DNA from: Verrucomicrobiia bacterium
GTDB lineage: Bacteria > Verrucomicrobiota > Verrucomicrobiia > Palsa-1439
Assembly: GCA_022072455.1 (NCBI GenBank)
Contig: JAJVHY010000017.1
Coordinates: 1-64,000, forward strand
Length of the DNA stretch: 64,000 nucleotides
Direction: 5' to 3'
This document shows, piece after piece, positions 1-7,707 of this stretch. The notes under the pieces were generated by a model. That model worked only from the letters and a program-made list of their open reading frames with translations, had not been told where the DNA came from and ran no database searches. The first letter of the stretch is position 1. Each line of letters opens with the position of its first letter. Position numbers and translations under genes: made by a program.

Positions 1-555
1 AGTGATGGCCGCCATGTCTACCACACCGACGCGCTTGGCAGCGTGTGGGCGATGACAGACGATCTGCAAGCCGTTGCCAAGAGTTACACCTACGAAGCGT
101 TCGGCAAGATTCGGGGTGAAGCGGGCACTGGGTTGTTGTTCCCGAATCGCTACACGTACACAGCGCGTGAGAGCATGGGTGATTCAGCAGGGCTTTACTA
201 CTACCGCTGGCGCGTGATGGACCCGAACGTGGGAAGATTTACGAGCGAGGATCCACTTAGCTTCGAAGGTAAAGACATTACGCTGTATCGGTATGCCGAT
301 AACAATCCAATTAAATTTGTGGATCCGTTTGGAGATACATGCAAAGATGAGTGTAAGGATGACCTTAAGAAGTGTATGAAAAAGGCAGCGAAACATGCTG
401 GCGCATGTGCGGCGCTTTGTGGTGCAGCCTGTATCGTAAGCCCACCTGCCTGTGCTCTTTGCTTCGCTGGGTGTGCGGCTCTGTTAACAGTCGAAATAAA
501 TGATTGTGCCGATGATGCCAAAGATTGTATTGCGAAGTGCAAAACCTGTCCATAA
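1..555 (+). CDS. RHS core cassette 1 with Cys-rich tip (5' end outside window)
   Basis: The frame is open from base 1, so this is the 3' part of a longer gene. It encodes the end of an RHS core: the RHS-associated region runs from YHTDALGS to GLYYYRWRVMDP, GRFTSEDP and the DPFG boundary. After DPFG comes a 73-residue tip with 13 cysteines, lysine-rich at both ends and hydrophobic in the middle. RHS proteins (known family) carry a constant shell-forming core and a variable C-terminal toxin. This tip matches no toxin family I recognise. Whether the off-window part is a full-length RHS gene or another truncated cassette cannot be seen. Confidence 0.85.
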   Translation, partial: SDGRHVYHTDALGSVWAMTDDLQAVAKSYTYEAFGKIRGEAGTGLLFPNRYTYTARESMGDSAGLYYYRWRVMDPNVGRFTSEDPLSFEGKDITLYRYADNNPIKFVDPFGDTCKDECKDDLKKCMKKAAKHAGACAALCGAACIVSPPACALCFAGCAALLTVEINDCADDAKDCIAKCKTCP

Positions 556-678
556 GCGCGTCTGTCAGAATAAATGCCATTCGCTTGCCAGTCATTTAGC
601 ATCCTGGCGGAATTCGCAAGGTGTCAGACAGAATGCCTATCGGTAGTCACCTCGACTGAAAAGTTACTGAGAATAGCT

Positions 679-1050
679 ATGGAGAACGAGAAGAATATAC
701 CGAGTACCACAAGCGCAGCGATAGAAGCCGAGGCAACGTTGGCCCTCAGTGAACTAAATCGACGTGCACGTCTCTTGGCGGTCGTACGCGGTAAATCACT
801 GTGGAGATTGTATGTGGCTGCAGCTATTTGGCTCATTCTTCTCGTGTACTTGTTCAATACGGAGATCCCAAACTCCAAGGTGGCCCTCGTCAGCTTGGTC
901 TCTCTCGCATTTCTGATCATAGGTTCTTACGTGGACTCTTCGCGGAGGATGAATGCACTCATTGAACTGATCGGAGAGGAAAATCTGAAGGGTGGGAAAG
1001 TCATTGGTCGAGGGGGTCAGCGATTGACAATTGACAAAACATCAAAATGA
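679..1050 (+). CDS. small two-segment membrane protein, candidate immunity protein for tip 1
   Basis: This 123-residue protein is not from a family I recognise. It has a charged N-terminal region (about residues 1-42), two hydrophobic segments (about 48-62 and 68-83) and a basic C-terminal tail. I chose the ATG at 679 because the longer frame upstream looks non-coding. It directly follows the RHS tip, the position where RHS immunity genes normally lie. That position and the membrane topology make it a candidate immunity protein; this is inference. Its last codons lie in a GGGGTCA junction motif, so its native C-terminus may have been altered. Confidence 0.55.
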   Translation: MENEKNIPSTTSAAIEAEATLALSELNRRARLLAVVRGKSLWRLYVAAAIWLILLVYLFNTEIPNSKVALVSLVSLAFLIIGSYVDSSRRMNALIELIGEENLKGGKVIGRGGQRLTIDKTSK

Positions 1051-1114
1051 GAGACTCAAAACTGTCAATAAACACTGCTGGAATTGAATGCTGTCAAATG
1101 TCAATCGTTGACCC
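1014..1114. repeat. 23-bp inverted repeat pair, REPIN-like
   Basis: Bases 1014-1036 read GGGTCAGCGATTGACA and continue to TTGACA. The reverse complement of 1092-1114 is the same 23-mer with two differences. The arms flank 55 bp, giving a 101-bp unit. The GGGTCAACGATT part recurs at the RHS cassette junctions near 2495 and 3961. The arrangement resembles a REP doublet (REPIN) or a small non-autonomous element; that naming is inference. Confidence 0.6.
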
Positions 1115-1259
1115 TCTTTTCACAGACTTTGTGGCGAGCGTAGTCGGTGGGCTTTTTCCTGCAACGGGCGGGTCAACCAGCTATGTCTACTATATTTCAG
1201 GTGCTGTTGGTTGCTTGAAACTCTGCAAATCTGGGATTTGCGTCTCCCCCGGGGGCTGA
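1047..1259 (+). CDS. small ORF, possible remnant of an RHS tip
   Basis: This 70-residue frame overlaps the previous gene by ATGA. Its first 20 or so codons lie inside the inverted-repeat element, so the coupling may be accidental. The rest contains an IVDP motif and a glycine-rich hydrophobic stretch, and ends in a run with three cysteines. That recalls the Cys-rich tips of the neighbouring cassettes, so it may be a tip whose RHS core was lost. It could equally be non-coding. Confidence 0.25.
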   Translation: MRDSKLSINTAGIECCQMSIVDPLFTDFVASVVGGLFPATGGSTSYVYYISGAVGCLKLCKSGICVSPGG

Positions 1260-1279
1260 CGGTGGGAGTTGTTCGCCTC

Positions 1280-2539
1280 ATGAAGATCTTCTACAGACAC
1301 AAGCTTCGCTCCGCATTGGTTCTGGTAATTTTGGCCACCGTGCTTGTGCTCAATCTTATCGGCTATCGGTCTGAAGTCATTTTGGTGCTCTGTCAGCGTC
1401 TAATTGCGTCAGCGCAGATCGCGCGAAATCTCGATAGCAAAGATAACTTCCTAATTCACTCAAGCTTGGACGTTCTCGGTAGGCGACAGAGCAAGCTAGG
1501 TGAGTCGAAGGCACGCCAGCTTCTTCATAAACCCGGTAGCTGGAAAGTGGCTGCGATTTATTTAGGGCGTTTAGGACACCAGACAGCTGTGCCATATCTA
1601 ATTAAGGCGTTGGGCTCTCAACATATGACGGGTCTCCGCGAAGTGCAGGCAAACCTTTTACAAGATCTTACCGGTCAGAGTTATGGGGTCGATTTCCCGC
1701 GATGGCGGGAGTGGTGGATGCTGAATCACCCTTGCAGTACTTTTGATTTCGAATCCCATCTCAACGTCCTACCGCTCCAGTTCGACCCGCTAGCTACCGA
1801 GAAACTGGAGGAAATGAGTTACACTGATTTGTTAGCGCTCGGAAATACGGAGCGATTTCAGGGCCGGTTGGATAGAGCGCTTATCATCCTAGACCGAGCG
1901 GTCGACATTGCCCCTCAGGTTCCTGATGCTTACACACTGCGCGGGTTCGTCTACATGGAGACCAGCAACTACCATAAGGCTCACGCGAGTTTCAGGGTCG
2001 CCACCGACCTTGCGCCGAGTAACGCAATTTACAGGAATAACCTAGCAAACGCACTCGATAAACTCGGCAGGGGCAATGAGGCAGCCGGTCAATACGACGA
2101 GGCAATTCGATTGAATGGTGGAGATATTACACTTCTCCTTGATCGCGGACGATTCAAGCTGATGAGGGGGGACATCAATGAGGCAATCGAGGATTTCACA
2201 CGAGCCACGACGATCCGCCCTTCATACAGAGTGCTTCGTCTCGTTGAAGCATGGGAAGTCAGCGAACCTTCGCTCGCGTATAAGTTGCTCGGGGATGCTA
2301 AGAAACGCCAAGGCGACTTCTCCGGCGCCGAAGCAGCCTATAGCAAAGGGATCGCACTATCGCCTGTTTTTCCATCCGCGCTGGAGGAGCGAGCCACGGT
2401 AAGAGAGCTAAGCGGGAATTTGGGCGGGGCTGAACAAGACCGGAAAACTGCAGTGGAAATTAGAGAGCGGGAGAGGCGCGGAAAGGGCGTCAAAGGGGTC
2501 AACGATTCATCATCGAGGGGGTCAACTCCGCACTCTTGA
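1280..2539 (+). CDS. membrane-anchored HEAT/TPR repeat protein with chimeric C-terminus
   Basis: This is a 419-residue protein. I chose ATG 1280, preceded by GGTGGGAG, because residues 1-23 then form a basic stretch followed by one membrane segment. Residues about 80-150 contain a HEAT-like repeat and a TGQ..G.D...W..WW motif. From about residue 180 several TPR units follow. TPR domains bind other proteins; no enzymatic function is visible. The last 18 residues (KGVKGVNDSSSRGSTPHS) are encoded by the RHS junction repeat and occur almost unchanged at the end of the unrelated gene at 3724, so the native 3' end was replaced by rearrangement. Confidence 0.7.
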   Translation: MKIFYRHKLRSALVLVILATVLVLNLIGYRSEVILVLCQRLIASAQIARNLDSKDNFLIHSSLDVLGRRQSKLGESKARQLLHKPGSWKVAAIYLGRLGHQTAVPYLIKALGSQHMTGLREVQANLLQDLTGQSYGVDFPRWREWWMLNHPCSTFDFESHLNVLPLQFDPLATEKLEEMSYTDLLALGNTERFQGRLDRALIILDRAVDIAPQVPDAYTLRGFVYMETSNYHKAHASFRVATDLAPSNAIYRNNLANALDKLGRGNEAAGQYDEAIRLNGGDITLLLDRGRFKLMRGDINEAIEDFTRATTIRPSYRVLRLVEAWEVSEPSLAYKLLGDAKKRQGDFSGAEAAYSKGIALSPVFPSALEERATVRELSGNLGGAEQDRKTAVEIRERERRGKGVKGVNDSSSRGSTPHS

Positions 2540-2543
2540 CGAA
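2495..2543. repeat. RHS cassette junction repeat, copy A
   Basis: Two GGGGTCAAC motifs (2495-2503 and 2518-2526) precede CTCCGCACTCTTGACGAA and the RHS ATG. The 49-bp block recurs nearly base for base at 3961-4009, and in shorter form at 5279-5313. From CTCTTGACG onward it reads in frame as RHS sequence (TLDEMN), so the fusion point lies in the GGGGTCAACTCCG part. Confidence 0.75.
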
Positions 2544-3722
2544 ATGAATCGCAACCGAACCAACATCACGACGCTCGAAGGCGTGAATAGTTATAGTTAC
2601 AACAGCAACAACTGGCTGGTGGCAGTCACGTACCCCGACAGTCGGACGCAAGACTTCACCTACGACCCGGTCGGGAATCGGGTGCAGTTGGCCGATAGTG
2701 GGATAGGCGTCTCGCCCGTATTGTATTCCTTTGATGCCGCCAACCGCATGCAGTCAGACATTGCCGGCACAACCACAAACGCCTACTCGTTCGACGGAGC
2801 CGGTCGCTTAACCAACCAAACGGTGAATCTGCAACAGCGAAGCTATGCCTACGACTTCCGTTCGCAGATGACCAATCTCACGGACACGAATAGCGCGACC
2901 GGCGCATACGCGTTTGATTCCGACGGCAACCGCATTGTAGAGGCCGCTGTCTCTGGCGGCTCATTCCGGTACGTCTATGACGGCCCGAATGTCGTTCTCG
3001 AATTGACGAACAGCCTCGTGCAAGCCGTCTATATTCACGGACTCGGCATTGACCAACCCATCGAACGCATCCAGTTCATCAGCGGCGTCAGCGATGGCCG
3101 ACACGTCTATCACACCGACGCGCTCGGCTCCGTGTGGGCGATGACCGATGATCTTCAAGCTGTCGCGAAGAGTTACAGCTACGAGGCGTTTGGGAAGATT
3201 CGCAGCGAAAGCGGAACCGGTTTGCTGTTCCCCAACCGCTATACCTACACCGCGCGCGAGAGCATCGGTGATTCAGCAGGGCTTTACTACTACCGCTGGC
3301 GCGTGATGAGTCCGAACGTGGGAAGATTTACGAGCGAGGATCCACTGGGGTTTGTGGATGGGCCGAACCGTTATCTCTATGCCAAAGGAATGCCGGTCAT
3401 TTTCTTTGATTCAAATGGGTTGAAAGTTACATGGTTATGCACAATCAATGATAGTGATGTTCCTGCATGTCAAAAAGAGGTTTTTAATAATTGCATCAAT
3501 AGTAATGCGGGTTGGCCAAATATTGGCGGATGGTGGGGTGGTCTCTCGAGCGGCATTACGGCGGGACTTGTATGCTCGTGGGCCGGACTCGCTGCGGTGC
3601 CGTGTGGGCTTATTGGTGGAGGAATAAGCCTAGTAGGCAGTTACTTAGGGCAGTGCCAAACGGCTCAAATCATCGACAACCATTGTAAAAGCGAGGCTGC
3701 AGCAAATAGCTGCTGCAACTAG
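2544..3722 (+). CDS. truncated RHS core cassette 2 with Cys-rich, Gly-rich hydrophobic tip
   Basis: This 392-residue RHS fragment has YD-type repeats (FTYDPVGNRV, YSFDAANRM, YAYDFRSQ, YAFDSDGNRI) in residues 1-140, then the RHS-associated core up to about residue 293. After FFDSNGL comes a 99-residue tip with 9 cysteines and a long glycine-rich hydrophobic stretch. The N-terminal portion of a normal RHS protein is missing and no ribosome-binding site precedes the ATG. It is therefore probably a silent orphan cassette expressed only after recombination with a complete rhs gene; this is inferred from known orphan rhs modules. The tip is AT-richer than the core. Confidence 0.75.
   Translation: MNRNRTNITTLEGVNSYSYNSNNWLVAVTYPDSRTQDFTYDPVGNRVQLADSGIGVSPVLYSFDAANRMQSDIAGTTTNAYSFDGAGRLTNQTVNLQQRSYAYDFRSQMTNLTDTNSATGAYAFDSDGNRIVEAAVSGGSFRYVYDGPNVVLELTNSLVQAVYIHGLGIDQPIERIQFISGVSDGRHVYHTDALGSVWAMTDDLQAVAKSYSYEAFGKIRSESGTGLLFPNRYTYTARESIGDSAGLYYYRWRVMSPNVGRFTSEDPLGFVDGPNRYLYAKGMPVIFFDSNGLKVTWLCTINDSDVPACQKEVFNNCINSNAGWPNIGGWWGGLSSGITAGLVCSWAGLAAVPCGLIGGGISLVGSYLGQCQTAQIIDNHCKSEAAANSCCN
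2583..3277. repeat. 695-bp direct repeat of RHS core (partner at 5353-6047)
   Basis: Reading both stretches side by side at a fixed offset of 2770 bases, I found no difference across 695 bp. Sequence diverges on both sides. Cassette 3 between them is clearly more divergent. This points to recent duplication or gene conversion between cassettes 2 and 4. Confidence 0.85.
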
Positions 3723-3723
3723 G

Positions 3724-4005
3724 ATGAGACACGTTAAAATTGGAATGAGGGTTGATGCCGAACTCTTCCTTGACATTGCCTTTTTCGGATGTCTGGGCTT
3801 AACGGCTGGGTCATTGGGTATGCTCGTATTGCAACTTGGACTTGGGCGGCAACAGTTCGATTCTCGCCATCTGCAAGTTCTGGTAGGTGCATTTATTGGC
3901 TTTTGGGGATATGTCGTGTCTAGTGCTTGGAAGATTTCCAACCTGCAAAACAAAGTCAAAGGGGTCAACGATTCATCATCGAGGGGGTCAACTCCGCACT
4001 CTTGA
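3724..4005 (+). CDS. small two-segment membrane protein, candidate immunity protein for tip 2
   Basis: This 93-residue protein starts one base after the stop of RHS cassette 2. It has two hydrophobic segments (about residues 13-40 and 49-67) and belongs to no family I recognise. The last 17 residues are encoded by the cassette junction repeat and match the end of the TPR protein at 1280-2539, so the native C-terminus is lost or replaced. Position behind a variable RHS tip suggests an immunity role (inference). The overlapping frame at 3887 is only an upstream extension of the next RHS cassette. Confidence 0.5.
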   Translation: MRHVKIGMRVDAELFLDIAFFGCLGLTAGSLGMLVLQLGLGRQQFDSRHLQVLVGAFIGFWGYVVSSAWKISNLQNKVKGVNDSSSRGSTPHS

Positions 4006-4009
4006 CGAT
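3961..4009. repeat. RHS cassette junction repeat, copy B
   Basis: The GGGGTCAAC motifs lie at 3961-3969 and 3984-3992. The block matches copy A except for the base before the RHS ATG region (GATATG versus GAAATG). It forms the 3' end of the upstream small gene and the 5' border of cassette 3. Confidence 0.75.
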
Positions 4010-5092
4010 ATGAATCGCAACCGAACCAACATCACGACGCTCGAAGGCGTGAATAGTTATAGTTACAACAGCAACAACTGGCTGGTGGCAGTCACGTATC
4101 CCGACAGCCGGACGCAAGAGTTCACCTACGACCCGGTCGGGAACCGGGTGCAGTTGGCCGATAGTGGGATAGGCGTCTCGCTTGTCACCTATTCTTACGA
4201 CGCCGCGAACCGCATGCAAACCGACATCGCCGGCACGACCACCAACGCGTACACCTTCGACGGAGCCGGCCGTCTGACAAACCAAGTGGTCAGTGGTAGC
4301 AGTCGCGCGTATGCCTACGACTTCCGCTCCCAAACGACGGCGCTCACCGACACGAATGCTGCAACGGGCGCATACGCGTTTGATTCCGACGGCAACCGGA
4401 TCGTAGAGACCGCCATCCTTGGCGGCTCCTTCCGGTACGTCTACGACGGCCCCAATGTGGTGCTCGAATTAACGAACAGCCTCGTCCAAGCTGTGTACGT
4501 TCATAGTCTCGGCATTGACCAGCCCATTGAGCGCATCCAATTCATCAGTGGTGTGAGCGATGGCCGGCATGTTTATCATACCGACATACTTGGTAGCGTG
4601 TGGGCGATGACCGATGACCTCCAAGCCGTTGCCAAGAGTTACACCTACGAGGCGTTTGGGAAGATTCGTAGTGAAAGCGGGACCGGTTTGCTGTTCCCCA
4701 ACCGCTACACCTATACCGCGCGTGAGAGCATGGGTGATTCAGCAGGGCTTTACTACTACCGCTGGCGTGTGATGGATCCGAGTGTGGGGAGGTTTACGAG
4801 TGAGGATCCCTTGGGAAACTTGGACGGGTTAAGTTTGTATATTTACGTTCGAAACGGTGCGACGGCTTATGTCGATCCGGATGGAAGGGTCCCGGTTTTC
4901 CCTTGCCTAGTTTGTGGGGCTTGCGGAGCAGCCGCATTTCTTGACTGTGCAGGGATTTGCGGGTGTAGTTTTTGGAGCGACCCAGATGAAACGTTTCCTC
5001 AATGTATGAAGGCGTGTATTGAGGCTGCCGCCGATGCGGGCTGGATAACAATTGGCTGTGCTGCCGCTTGCGTAGCCTGCCCATTTTTCTGA
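4010..5092 (+). CDS. truncated RHS core cassette 3 with Cys-rich tip
   Basis: This 360-residue RHS fragment has the same layout as cassette 2: YD repeats, RHS-associated core with GLYYYRWRVMDP, and the YVDPDGR boundary near residue 293. The tip is 67 residues long with 11 cysteines, many in C-x2-C or C-x3-C spacing, and is mainly Ala/Gly/Cys and hydrophobic. I place the start at ATG 4010 by analogy with cassettes 2 and 4. The frame is open upstream to 3887 but encodes nothing RHS-like there. The core differs from cassettes 2 and 4 at many silent and some coding positions. Confidence 0.75.
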   Translation: MNRNRTNITTLEGVNSYSYNSNNWLVAVTYPDSRTQEFTYDPVGNRVQLADSGIGVSLVTYSYDAANRMQTDIAGTTTNAYTFDGAGRLTNQVVSGSSRAYAYDFRSQTTALTDTNAATGAYAFDSDGNRIVETAILGGSFRYVYDGPNVVLELTNSLVQAVYVHSLGIDQPIERIQFISGVSDGRHVYHTDILGSVWAMTDDLQAVAKSYTYEAFGKIRSESGTGLLFPNRYTYTARESMGDSAGLYYYRWRVMDPSVGRFTSEDPLGNLDGLSLYIYVRNGATAYVDPDGRVPVFPCLVCGACGAAAFLDCAGICGCSFWSDPDETFPQCMKACIEAAADAGWITIGCAAACVACPFF

Positions 5093-5123
5093 TCTAACGA
5101 CTAACGTAGAAAGGTCTTAACAG

Positions 5124-5309
5124 ATGTTAGATAAAGTGTTGGCGTTCAGCATCGGACTTGGGATGGGACTGATGATTGCCTTGCGCCTACCTAATGAGTT
5201 CTGCCTAATGGGCGGATTGGGGCTTGTTTTTACCGGTTCTGTAACAAAGGCTTTTGTGAACTATAGGTCGAAGTCGAGGGGGTCGACGGGGTCAACTCCG
5301 CACTCTTGA
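5124..5309 (+). CDS. very small membrane protein, candidate immunity protein for tip 3
   Basis: This 61-residue protein has two hydrophobic segments (about residues 5-21 and 26-42) and an AAAGG stretch about nine bases before its ATG. No family is recognised. It lies 31 bases after RHS cassette 3, as expected for a cognate immunity gene (inference). The last dozen codons (SRGSTGSTPHS) come from the junction motif of the next cassette, so this is the third gene in the array with a junction-derived C-terminus. Confidence 0.5.
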   Translation: MLDKVLAFSIGLGMGLMIALRLPNEFCLMGGLGLVFTGSVTKAFVNYRSKSRGSTGSTPHS

Positions 5310-5313
5310 CGAA
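5279..5313. repeat. RHS cassette junction repeat, copy C (shortened)
   Basis: GGGGTCGAC (5279-5287) abuts GGGGTCAAC (5288-5296), followed by TCCGCACTCTTGACGAA and the ATG of cassette 4. Compared with copies A and B the 14-base spacer between the motifs is gone. Confidence 0.65.
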
Positions 5314-6330
5314 ATGAACCGTCATCGCACGAACATGACGACACTCGAAGGCATGAATAGTTATAGTTACAACAGCAACAACTGGCTGGTGGCAGTCACG
5401 TACCCCGACAGTCGGACGCAAGACTTCACCTACGACCCGGTCGGGAATCGGGTGCAGTTGGCCGATAGTGGGATAGGCGTCTCGCCCGTATTGTATTCCT
5501 TTGATGCCGCCAACCGCATGCAGTCAGACATTGCCGGCACAACCACAAACGCCTACTCGTTCGACGGAGCCGGTCGCTTAACCAACCAAACGGTGAATCT
5601 GCAACAGCGAAGCTATGCCTACGACTTCCGTTCGCAGATGACCAATCTCACGGACACGAATAGCGCGACCGGCGCATACGCGTTTGATTCCGACGGCAAC
5701 CGCATTGTAGAGGCCGCTGTCTCTGGCGGCTCATTCCGGTACGTCTATGACGGCCCGAATGTCGTTCTCGAATTGACGAACAGCCTCGTGCAAGCCGTCT
5801 ATATTCACGGACTCGGCATTGACCAACCCATCGAACGCATCCAGTTCATCAGCGGCGTCAGCGATGGCCGACACGTCTATCACACCGACGCGCTCGGCTC
5901 CGTGTGGGCGATGACCGATGATCTTCAAGCTGTCGCGAAGAGTTACAGCTACGAGGCGTTTGGGAAGATTCGCAGCGAAAGCGGAACCGGTTTGCTGTTC
6001 CCCAACCGCTATACCTACACCGCGCGCGAGAGCATCGGTGATTCAGCGCGACTCTACTTCTACCGCTGGCGCGTGATGGATCCGAGTACCGGGAGGTTCA
6101 CAAGCGAGGATCCACTGGGGTTGATTGATGGATCGAATGTATATATTTATGTTCGCAATCGGCTAGGTATGGCAATTGATCCTATGGGCACATGCAGCTG
6201 GTCTGACTGTGACGCAATGGTGGCTTGTGTATATCTCGGCATGGTTCCAGGAGGGCATTGCGCTTGGAGTTGGATCGTATATGGTCAATGCGCAGGTAGG
6301 AGACAATGTCAGTGTGAATTAAATTGGTAG
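5314..6330 (+). CDS. truncated RHS core cassette 4 with short Cys/Trp-rich tip
   Basis: This is a 338-residue RHS fragment. After about 13 divergent codons its core is identical in DNA to cassette 2 up to the GDSA codons, then differs (RLYFYRWRVMDPSTGRF). After AIDPMGT the tip is only 45 residues long, with 7 cysteines and 3 tryptophans. The DNA of the tip is AT-richer than the core. Like the other cassettes it lacks an RHS N-terminal part and a visible ribosome-binding site, so it is probably a silent donor cassette (inference). Confidence 0.75.
   Translation: MNRHRTNMTTLEGMNSYSYNSNNWLVAVTYPDSRTQDFTYDPVGNRVQLADSGIGVSPVLYSFDAANRMQSDIAGTTTNAYSFDGAGRLTNQTVNLQQRSYAYDFRSQMTNLTDTNSATGAYAFDSDGNRIVEAAVSGGSFRYVYDGPNVVLELTNSLVQAVYIHGLGIDQPIERIQFISGVSDGRHVYHTDALGSVWAMTDDLQAVAKSYSYEAFGKIRSESGTGLLFPNRYTYTARESIGDSARLYFYRWRVMDPSTGRFTSEDPLGLIDGSNVYIYVRNRLGMAIDPMGTCSWSDCDAMVACVYLGMVPGGHCAWSWIVYGQCAGRRQCQCELNW
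5353..6047. repeat. 695-bp direct repeat of RHS core (partner at 2583-3277)
   Basis: This is the second copy of the repeat shared with cassette 2. Identity begins at the codons for MNSYSY and ends in the GDSA codons, just before the variable tip region. Confidence 0.85.
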
Positions 6331-6345
6331 ATTGGTAATGATCAC

Positions 6346-6804
6346 ATGAGTATGCCAGAATTTGAGATATGCCTAATGGGCTCGGTAAGTTCTCTTAAGA
6401 TCTACGTAGTGTCTGCTGACCATGGGTTGCGTTTGTTGTGTCCAATGGTTCATCCAGACAATATTCTTACAGTATCTAGATACTTCCTTGATGGAAAAGG
6501 ATTCATTACAACATATCCGGATCGTCAGGGACGCTTGATTGGAAAAGCAGGGGTAGCGTTTTCTTCGGATTCCCACATCTTAACTAATCAGGCAATGCCA
6601 AGTTTAGACGAAGTTCAGGTGTTTAGTTGCCAATTGGAGGAAGTCGACTGTGTTCTTATCAAACGATTGTGGTATGCTGTTTTTCTCTGTGTTTTCTGTA
6701 GATTACTGGGGTTACGACAAGCTCAGGTCGATCTCGAAACATGGTTACAGCCATATTGGAATAGTACTGGTTTGGCTATCGTTTGTGAAAGGGGTCACCC
6801 ATAA
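6346..6804 (+). CDS. hypothetical protein behind RHS tip 4, candidate immunity protein
   Basis: This 152-residue frame starts 15 bases after cassette 4 and belongs to no family I recognise. It is mostly soluble in appearance, with one hydrophobic stretch near residues 108-121 (LWYAVFLCVFCRLLGL). Its last codons read through a GGGGTCACC motif, so its end is probably junction-derived like those of the other small genes. A competing frame (6650-6907) reads the same motif as KGVTHK, the register seen in genes at 1280 and 3724. A frameshift or a different reading frame in the last third is therefore possible. Confidence 0.4.
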   Translation: MSMPEFEICLMGSVSSLKIYVVSADHGLRLLCPMVHPDNILTVSRYFLDGKGFITTYPDRQGRLIGKAGVAFSSDSHILTNQAMPSLDEVQVFSCQLEEVDCVLIKRLWYAVFLCVFCRLLGLRQAQVDLETWLQPYWNSTGLAIVCERGHP

Positions 6805-7205
6805 AGTGCGCCAAGGAAGTTTGGTGGGATTGGTGAGGGGCAAGTCCTCACGCGGTAAGGTGGAGCCGATCAAGTGGAGCGCATCGCCAAAGCCCGCCGG
6901 TAATTGAGGTGGACGGTTTTTCCGCCGGGAGTATGATGCCCGGCCGACAGTCCATGCACTTCGCTCACAACCACGCAATTTCTGCCCTCATCTTCGATAT
7001 GGACGACTTGCTCGTCCGGTCGGCGGCCATTTGGCTTGCCGCTGAAAATACACTCCTGCGCGCGTTCGGCCAAACATGGACTCCCGAACTCGCGGCCCAG
7101 TACAAAGGGATGAACTCCCTCGATGTCGCCCGTGTCATTCACGAAACTTACCGGCCGGTTTGGCCTCTCACTGAGAGCCAGCGTCTCCTTCGCGACTCTC
7201 TCATT
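6791..7205. repeat. 415-bp imperfect duplication, copy 1
   Basis: This stretch begins at GGGGTCACC and matches 7293-7707 at a constant offset of 502 bases with scattered substitutions. It contains the 5' region of the HAD phosphatase gene, including a short palindrome (GTGAGG...CCTCAC near 6834) and the first third of the coding sequence. Confidence 0.85.
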
Positions 7206-7241
7206 CGATGGGGTCAACTCACCACACGTGACAGAGTCTGA
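6936..7241 (+). pseudogene. 5' fragment of HAD-family phosphatase gene (duplicate)
   Basis: Codons from the start to RLLRDSLI match the intact gene at 7438-8103, including the DMDDLLVRS nucleophile motif. At 7205 homology stops and the frame runs into a GGGGTCAACTCACC repeat, ending after a few unrelated codons. The cap domain remainder and the HAD motifs II-IV are missing, so the product cannot be an active phosphatase. It arose by partial duplication of its neighbour. Confidence 0.85.
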
Positions 7242-7280
7242 AGATTTTCGATGGGGTCAACTCACCACGCGTGACAGAGT
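7206..7280. repeat. two tandem 32-bp repeats with GGGGTCAAC motif
   Basis: Copies start at 7206 and 7249. Each runs from CGATGGGGTCAAC through ACTCACCAC and CGTGACAGAGT, and they differ at one base. A third CGATGGGGTCA at 7289 begins the second copy of the 415-bp duplication. The motif is related to the RHS junction repeats. Confidence 0.8.
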
Positions 7281-7292
7281 GACGAAGTCGAT

Positions 7293-7707
7293 GGGGTCAC
7301 CCATAAAGTGCGCCAAGGAAACTTGGCGGGATTGGTGAGGGGCAAGTCCTCACGCGGTAAGGTGGAGCCGATTAAGTGAAGCACATCACCAAAGCCGGTC
7401 GGTAATTCAGGTGGAAGGTTTTTCCGCCGGGAGTATGATGCCCGGCCGACAGTCCATGCACTTCGCTCACAACCACGCAGTTTCTGCCCTCATCTTCGAT
7501 ATGGACGACTTGCTCGTCCGGTCGGCGGCCATTTGGCTTGCCGCTGAAAATTCACTGTTGCGCGCCCTCGGCCAAACGTGGACTCCCGAACTCGCGGCCC
7601 AGTACAAAGGGATGAACTCCCTCGATGTCGCCCGCGTCATTCACGAAACTTACCGGCCAGCTTGGCCTCTCACCGAGAGCCAGCGGCTCCTTCGCGACAC
7701 GCTCATT
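7293..7707. repeat. 415-bp imperfect duplication, copy 2
   Basis: Matches 6791-7205. This copy continues into the intact HAD phosphatase gene and is therefore the probable original. Confidence 0.85.

Follow-up and report, generated by a model that had tools for sequence, protein, structure and literature searches.

Orphan rhs-CT/rhsI modules were described in Salmonella LT2, where displaced 3' fragments of rhs genes, each with a new C-terminal tip (CT) and an immunity gene, lie 3' of a long rhs gene (PMC3967940); those of Enterobacteriaceae are also treated in PMC3150448. Solo toxin cassettes occur in polymorphic toxin loci, and polymorphic toxins have been listed for Verrucomicrobia (Zhang et al., 2012, PMC3482391). 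In TIRYT elements, or TIRtrons (TnpA-Y1 subclass 2.1), GGGGWSAS-type terminal inverted repeats (TIRs) are placed in inverted orientation around Y1 transposase genes, and solo and dimeric TIRs are found as well (PMC3733652, PMC6006769). Here we analyzed a 64,000-nucleotide stretch from the genome of an uncultured Verrucomicrobiia bacterium, of the class to which MAG SKYG124 belongs (the window; contig JAJVHY010000017.1, hereafter C8). Its positions 1-6804 are an array of orphan rhs-CT/immunity modules, as in Salmonella, with toxin and immunity roles predicted from the sequence. The array likely arose by TIR-seeded duplication of 3' rhs fragments, with recombination in the core swapping putatively membrane-acting tips into a long rhs gene.

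Tandem rhs cassettes and their tips

The 3' end of the rhs core was present in four direct copies within the first 6.1 kb (1-257, 3090-3346, 4556-4812 and 5860-6116), and all four were matched by Rhs_assc_core (TIGR03696) far beyond chance (E 3e-18 to 3e-13). Among solved structures, Rhs proteins were the best relatives found for cassette 2. The whole cassette core of ~269 codons, termed core A, occurred in three copies with 90-97% amino acid identity among them, while the four tips behind the DPxG motif were mutually unrelated (polymorphic). At the tip junction a DPLG-x19-DPxG-like spacing could be read in the cassettes, with DSNG in cassette 2. These coordinates and matches confirmed the original prediction, made from the DNA alone, of four tandem rhs core ends with different tips. 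The N-terminal truncation that it proposed for every core held for the three complete cassettes (2-4), which lack the N-terminal two thirds including the signal and most YD repeats; it could not be upheld for cassette 1, which the assembly cuts short: contig C8 ends at window base 1. Contig C30 holds at least two more cassettes on core A, one of which has decayed, being internally deleted and lacking a tip, and four cassettes are therefore a lower limit. Misassembly was ruled out as the main explanation of the array, as tips and junctions were distinct and branching was confined to contig ends.

Two features that had escaped the original prediction were the cysteine-rich tips and a transposon TIR at the complete cassette starts. 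Across six tips, the window's four plus one each from C30 and C11, cysteine accounted for 7-13% of the residues, versus 0 of 268 core residues. The gene after each tip was different, as predicted, although these genes are not all small: tip 1 was followed by a small membrane open reading frame (ORF) and then by a 420-aa TPR protein. The partner ORFs of the tips contained hydrophobic windows. The tips probably act on membranes and are probably neutralized by the small membrane proteins, which are paired with most tips and may protect their owner. The cysteine-rich hydrophobic tips may represent an undescribed class of Rhs tip. Candidate immunity protein 1 belonged to no Pfam family and had a single weak match (G050) among 384 genomes of the class. 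A link of this protein to rhs elsewhere was rejected, since the ORFs of the 2.6-kb G050 locus lacked an rhs core.

Terminal repeats at the cassette starts

A TIR was present at the left end of the complete cassettes, and GGGGTCAACTCCGCACTCTTGACG opened 5/5 complete cassette starts in the genome. Pattern searches, on which the genome-wide TIR statistics are based, gave 25 occurrences of the 11-mer GGGGTCAACTC versus 1 in the reversed control. Several copies flanked Y1 transposase genes in inverted, TIRYT-like orientation, which fits the GGGGWSAS-type TIR of TIRYT elements (PMC3733652, PMC6006769). The cassette start beyond the 11-mer also scored as TIR (11.6 versus a TIR mean of 12.1; null p 3e-5). 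With this score, and with C17 being unrelated upstream of the NRTN motif, native rhs coding was considered an unlikely identity for the cassette-leading sequence. Each complete cassette has a defined mobile-element end as its left breakpoint, which makes a specific origin testable.

To our knowledge, the origin of orphan toxin/immunity cassettes is not settled. One candidate is the active mobilization of TIR-led rhs cassettes by TIRYT (HUH, IS200-like) transposases, which would make the array a transposition-built library. The TIR that leads each complete cassette, five genes for Y1 transposases, a miniature inverted-repeat transposable element (MITE) inside the array and a TIR-bounded duplicate of an unrelated HAD gene adjoining it are consistent with this proposal; the cassettes, however, lack an inverted right-end TIR, their same-direction TIRs equally fit simple tandem duplication by recombination, and movement of TIRYT elements was not demonstrated in PMC3733652 or PMC6006769. 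We regard it as distinctly unlikely. A variant, in which TIRYT transposases or TIRs actively create and multiply the TIR-led toxin/immunity cassettes and homologous recombination then makes use of the tip library, appears unlikely though still credible.

The TIRs also bear on the proposal that each cassette is translated by reinitiation as a small standalone toxin. The TGA of the preceding ORF was located just before the cassette ATG in 3/3 cases (2537/2544, 4003/4010 and 5307/5314). The common stop sits in the common TIR, however, so that the three cases are not independent, and the cassettes have no export signal; such standalone toxins are highly improbable.

A family of MITEs with TIRYT-type ends (~105-120 bp) was observed at window 1008-1118, C35:17887-18005, C19:597-702 and C30:1837-1947. 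In the region of the HAD-hydrolase duplication (window 6791-7707), TIR motifs were located at 6791, 7210, 7253 and 7293.

Table 1. Features in and beside the rhs array (window coordinates; TM, transmembrane).
Feature	Position	Strand	Remarks
rhs core A, cassette 1, 3' part	1..257	+	TIGR03696 E 3e-18; cut at contig end
Tip 1, 98 aa	258..555	+	13.3% Cys; one hydrophobic window
Candidate immunity protein 1	679..1050	+	two predicted TM windows; MITE supplies the last codons
MITE, TIRYT-type, 103 bp	1013..1115		inward-facing TIRs 1013-1036 and 1092-1115
TPR-repeat protein, ~420 aa	1280..2539	+	TIRs supply the C-terminal tail codons
Two tandem TIRs, left end of cassette 2	2495..2541	+	GGGGTCAACG... 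at 2495, GGGGTCAACTC... at 2518
rhs core A, cassette 2	2544..3350	+	core comparison; TIGR03696
Tip 2, 124 aa	3351..3722	+	7.3% Cys
Candidate immunity protein 2	3724..4005	+	hydrophobic; TIRs supply the tail codons
Two tandem TIRs, left end of cassette 3	3961..4007	+	
rhs core A, cassette 3	4010..4816	+	core comparison; TIGR03696
Tip 3, 92 aa	4817..5092	+	12.0% Cys
Candidate immunity protein 3	5124..5309	+	short membrane protein; TIR supplies the tail codons
Tandem TIRs, left end of cassette 4	5279..5311	+	GGGGTCG at 5279, GGGGTCAACTC at 5288
rhs core A, cassette 4	5314..6120	+	694 bp identical to cassette 2
Tip 4, 70 aa	6121..6330	+	10.0% Cys
ORF after tip 4, 152 aa, possible immunity protein	6346..6804	+	one TM window
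Truncated duplicate of HAD gene 5' part, 415 bp	6791..7205	+	94% identical to 7293-7707; bounded by TIRs at 6791 and 7210

Core recombination and the long rhs genes

The cassettes recombine with each other through the core. Of 850 positions compared between cassettes 2 and 4, 30 differed; these were confined to the two ends, and the 694-bp identical tract between them was longer than expected by chance (random placement gave a maximum of 348 in 100,000 trials, p<1e-5). Cassette 3 and the first C30 cassette were 98% alike in the last block and 76-86% alike upstream of it. Blast blocks between cassettes started inside the TIRs and ended near the tip start. For cassettes 2 and 3 dN/dS was ~0.11 (0.074/0.666). 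The conversion tract and the dN/dS together indicate that the core serves as a substrate for recombination and has evolved under constraint. They also bear on the view of the array as decaying debris, that is, non-functional rhs ends left by tandem duplication with no donor role. Debris would agree with the missing signal peptides, with promoter-like sites no more numerous than in shuffles, and with the C30 cassette that is internally deleted and lacks a tip; the four intact ORFs, the low dN/dS and the recent conversion tract argue against it, and duplication alone cannot yield different tips. We consider this view quite improbable.

At least two long rhs genes were found elsewhere in the genome; the absence of any such gene would have refuted the original prediction. 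The gene on the minus strand of C11 is intact (1696 aa), has its own cysteine-rich tip and carries a core that differs from core A; it is followed by a 140-aa T2SSG-domain ORF, a TIR and core A up to the contig end. The second, on the minus strand of C17, encodes at least 1119 aa, and its last 269 bp before the contig end are core A (84% nucleotide identity). The two loci are 76% identical across 4.6 kb, with a LuxR-type response regulator upstream, and both N termini read as signal-peptide-like. TssK (PF05936) was absent from the genome, which is 95.6% complete, and delivery of Rhs by a type VI secretion system was rejected on this ground. As a separate observation, the slot that an immunity gene would take behind the rhs tip of C11 is filled by a T2SSG-domain (PF08334) protein (L009:745-1164, minus strand).

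Over its first 127 bp the window matched exactly one contig end each of C11 (last 127 bp) and C30 (first 127 bp), both read on the minus strand, and the C11 cassette that overlaps cassette 1 by these 127 bp starts at the same TIR. As the 127 bp are common to C8, C11 and C30, they form an assembly branch and the gene preceding the window is not fixed: the C11 arrangement fits a main gene directly 5' of the array, but the branch lies at the contig ends. The array had been predicted to be a store of variants for one expressed rhs gene upstream. Its presence, a long rhs gene sharing the core and the recombination agree with part of this; a single expressed gene upstream was not supported as stated, since there are two long paralogues and either may lead into the window. 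Further contig-end overlaps of 127 bp were seen beside TIRs (C10 left with C35 right; C3 right with C11 right). Because such overlaps adjoin TIRs, further TIRYT copies have probably collapsed in assembly gaps.

Each module consists of a transposon-type TIR, a rhs core of ~270 codons and a variable cysteine-rich tip, with a small membrane immunity gene as a probable fourth part. In the favored model of TIR-seeded duplication, the TIRs that TIRYT elements left behind would have been the points at which a 3' rhs fragment was first duplicated, either by recombination between the short TIR repeats or by irregular activity of TIRYT. Through the core, homologous recombination would then shift tips between cassettes and also onto a long rhs gene whose product is Sec-exported, where an arriving tip would change the displayed toxin.

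Several observations weigh against this model. No inverted TIR was found at the right end of a cassette, the TIRs between cassettes being direct only, and the five TIR-led starts may share descent from one event. Arrays of Pirellula-like metagenome-assembled genomes (MAGs) and of genomes G122 and G149 had no TIRs, which are thus not needed for such arrays. None of the window tips recurred on a long rhs gene, and exchange was not directly seen; the assembly graph left the joins C11-C8 and C17-C8 undecided. The TPR gene behind tip 1 breaks the pattern, the ORF that follows tip 4 is weakly membrane-like, and neither the window tips nor the small ORFs matched a family.

Related arrays and known systems

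An rhs core end of this kind was present in 62/384 genomes of the class, and a scan of genome contigs also gave rhs arrays in other taxa. In G122 a long rhs gene (1551 aa) was followed by shortened cassettes of 480, 304 and 135 aa, while G149 carried cassettes alone. G007, of the same family and another genus, had a separate array with 63-codon cores, and this array likewise starts at GGGGTCA or a degenerate form. As relatives' arrays carry cores of 63, 93 or 140 codons, the claim that the window cassettes are unusually short and packed was not sustained. The window array itself was absent from the searched genomes of the same genus and family, and an identical array in relatives was thus not seen. 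Two further observations concern other taxa: Pirellula-like MAGs (L111, L082) carried rhs cassettes of 140 codons in tandem, which shared upstream sequence and a boundary fixed on the left but had no TIR, and a possibly mis-binned MAG contig labelled Pseudomonadota (L059, JAKQEE010000325.1) held rhs cassettes with a 65% identical core end. That TIRs generally accompany rhs arrays was rejected on the Pirellula-like, G122 and G149 arrays. This kind of array is known and recurrent, and the TIR lead and strongly cysteine-rich tips make the window array a local variant of it. The TIR-led starts hint at how a row of spare tips for a contact-type bacterial toxin was built; if the TIR-based origin is true, the little-studied TIRYT repeats gain a part in toxin diversification.

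The array differs from the polymorphic toxin loci (PMC3482391) in tips that have no counterpart among the toxin families of Pfam or NCBIfam. As in TIRYT elements, the GGGGTCA motif flanks Y1 transposases in inverted orientation; here, in contrast, solo TIRs lead toxin cassettes and the unit is not closed by a second inverted TIR. The closest counterpart is the Salmonella case (PMC3967940), whose modules are, like the window cassettes, displaced 3' fragments, with a recombination core of 522 bp there and ~800 bp here. Exchange with the main gene was shown in Salmonella, and by analogy tips may likewise pass between the cassettes and a long rhs gene in this genome. The array described here differs in belonging to another phylum and to a genome without TssK, in its signal-peptide-type Rhs, and in its cysteine-rich tips and the TIR at the complete cassette starts.
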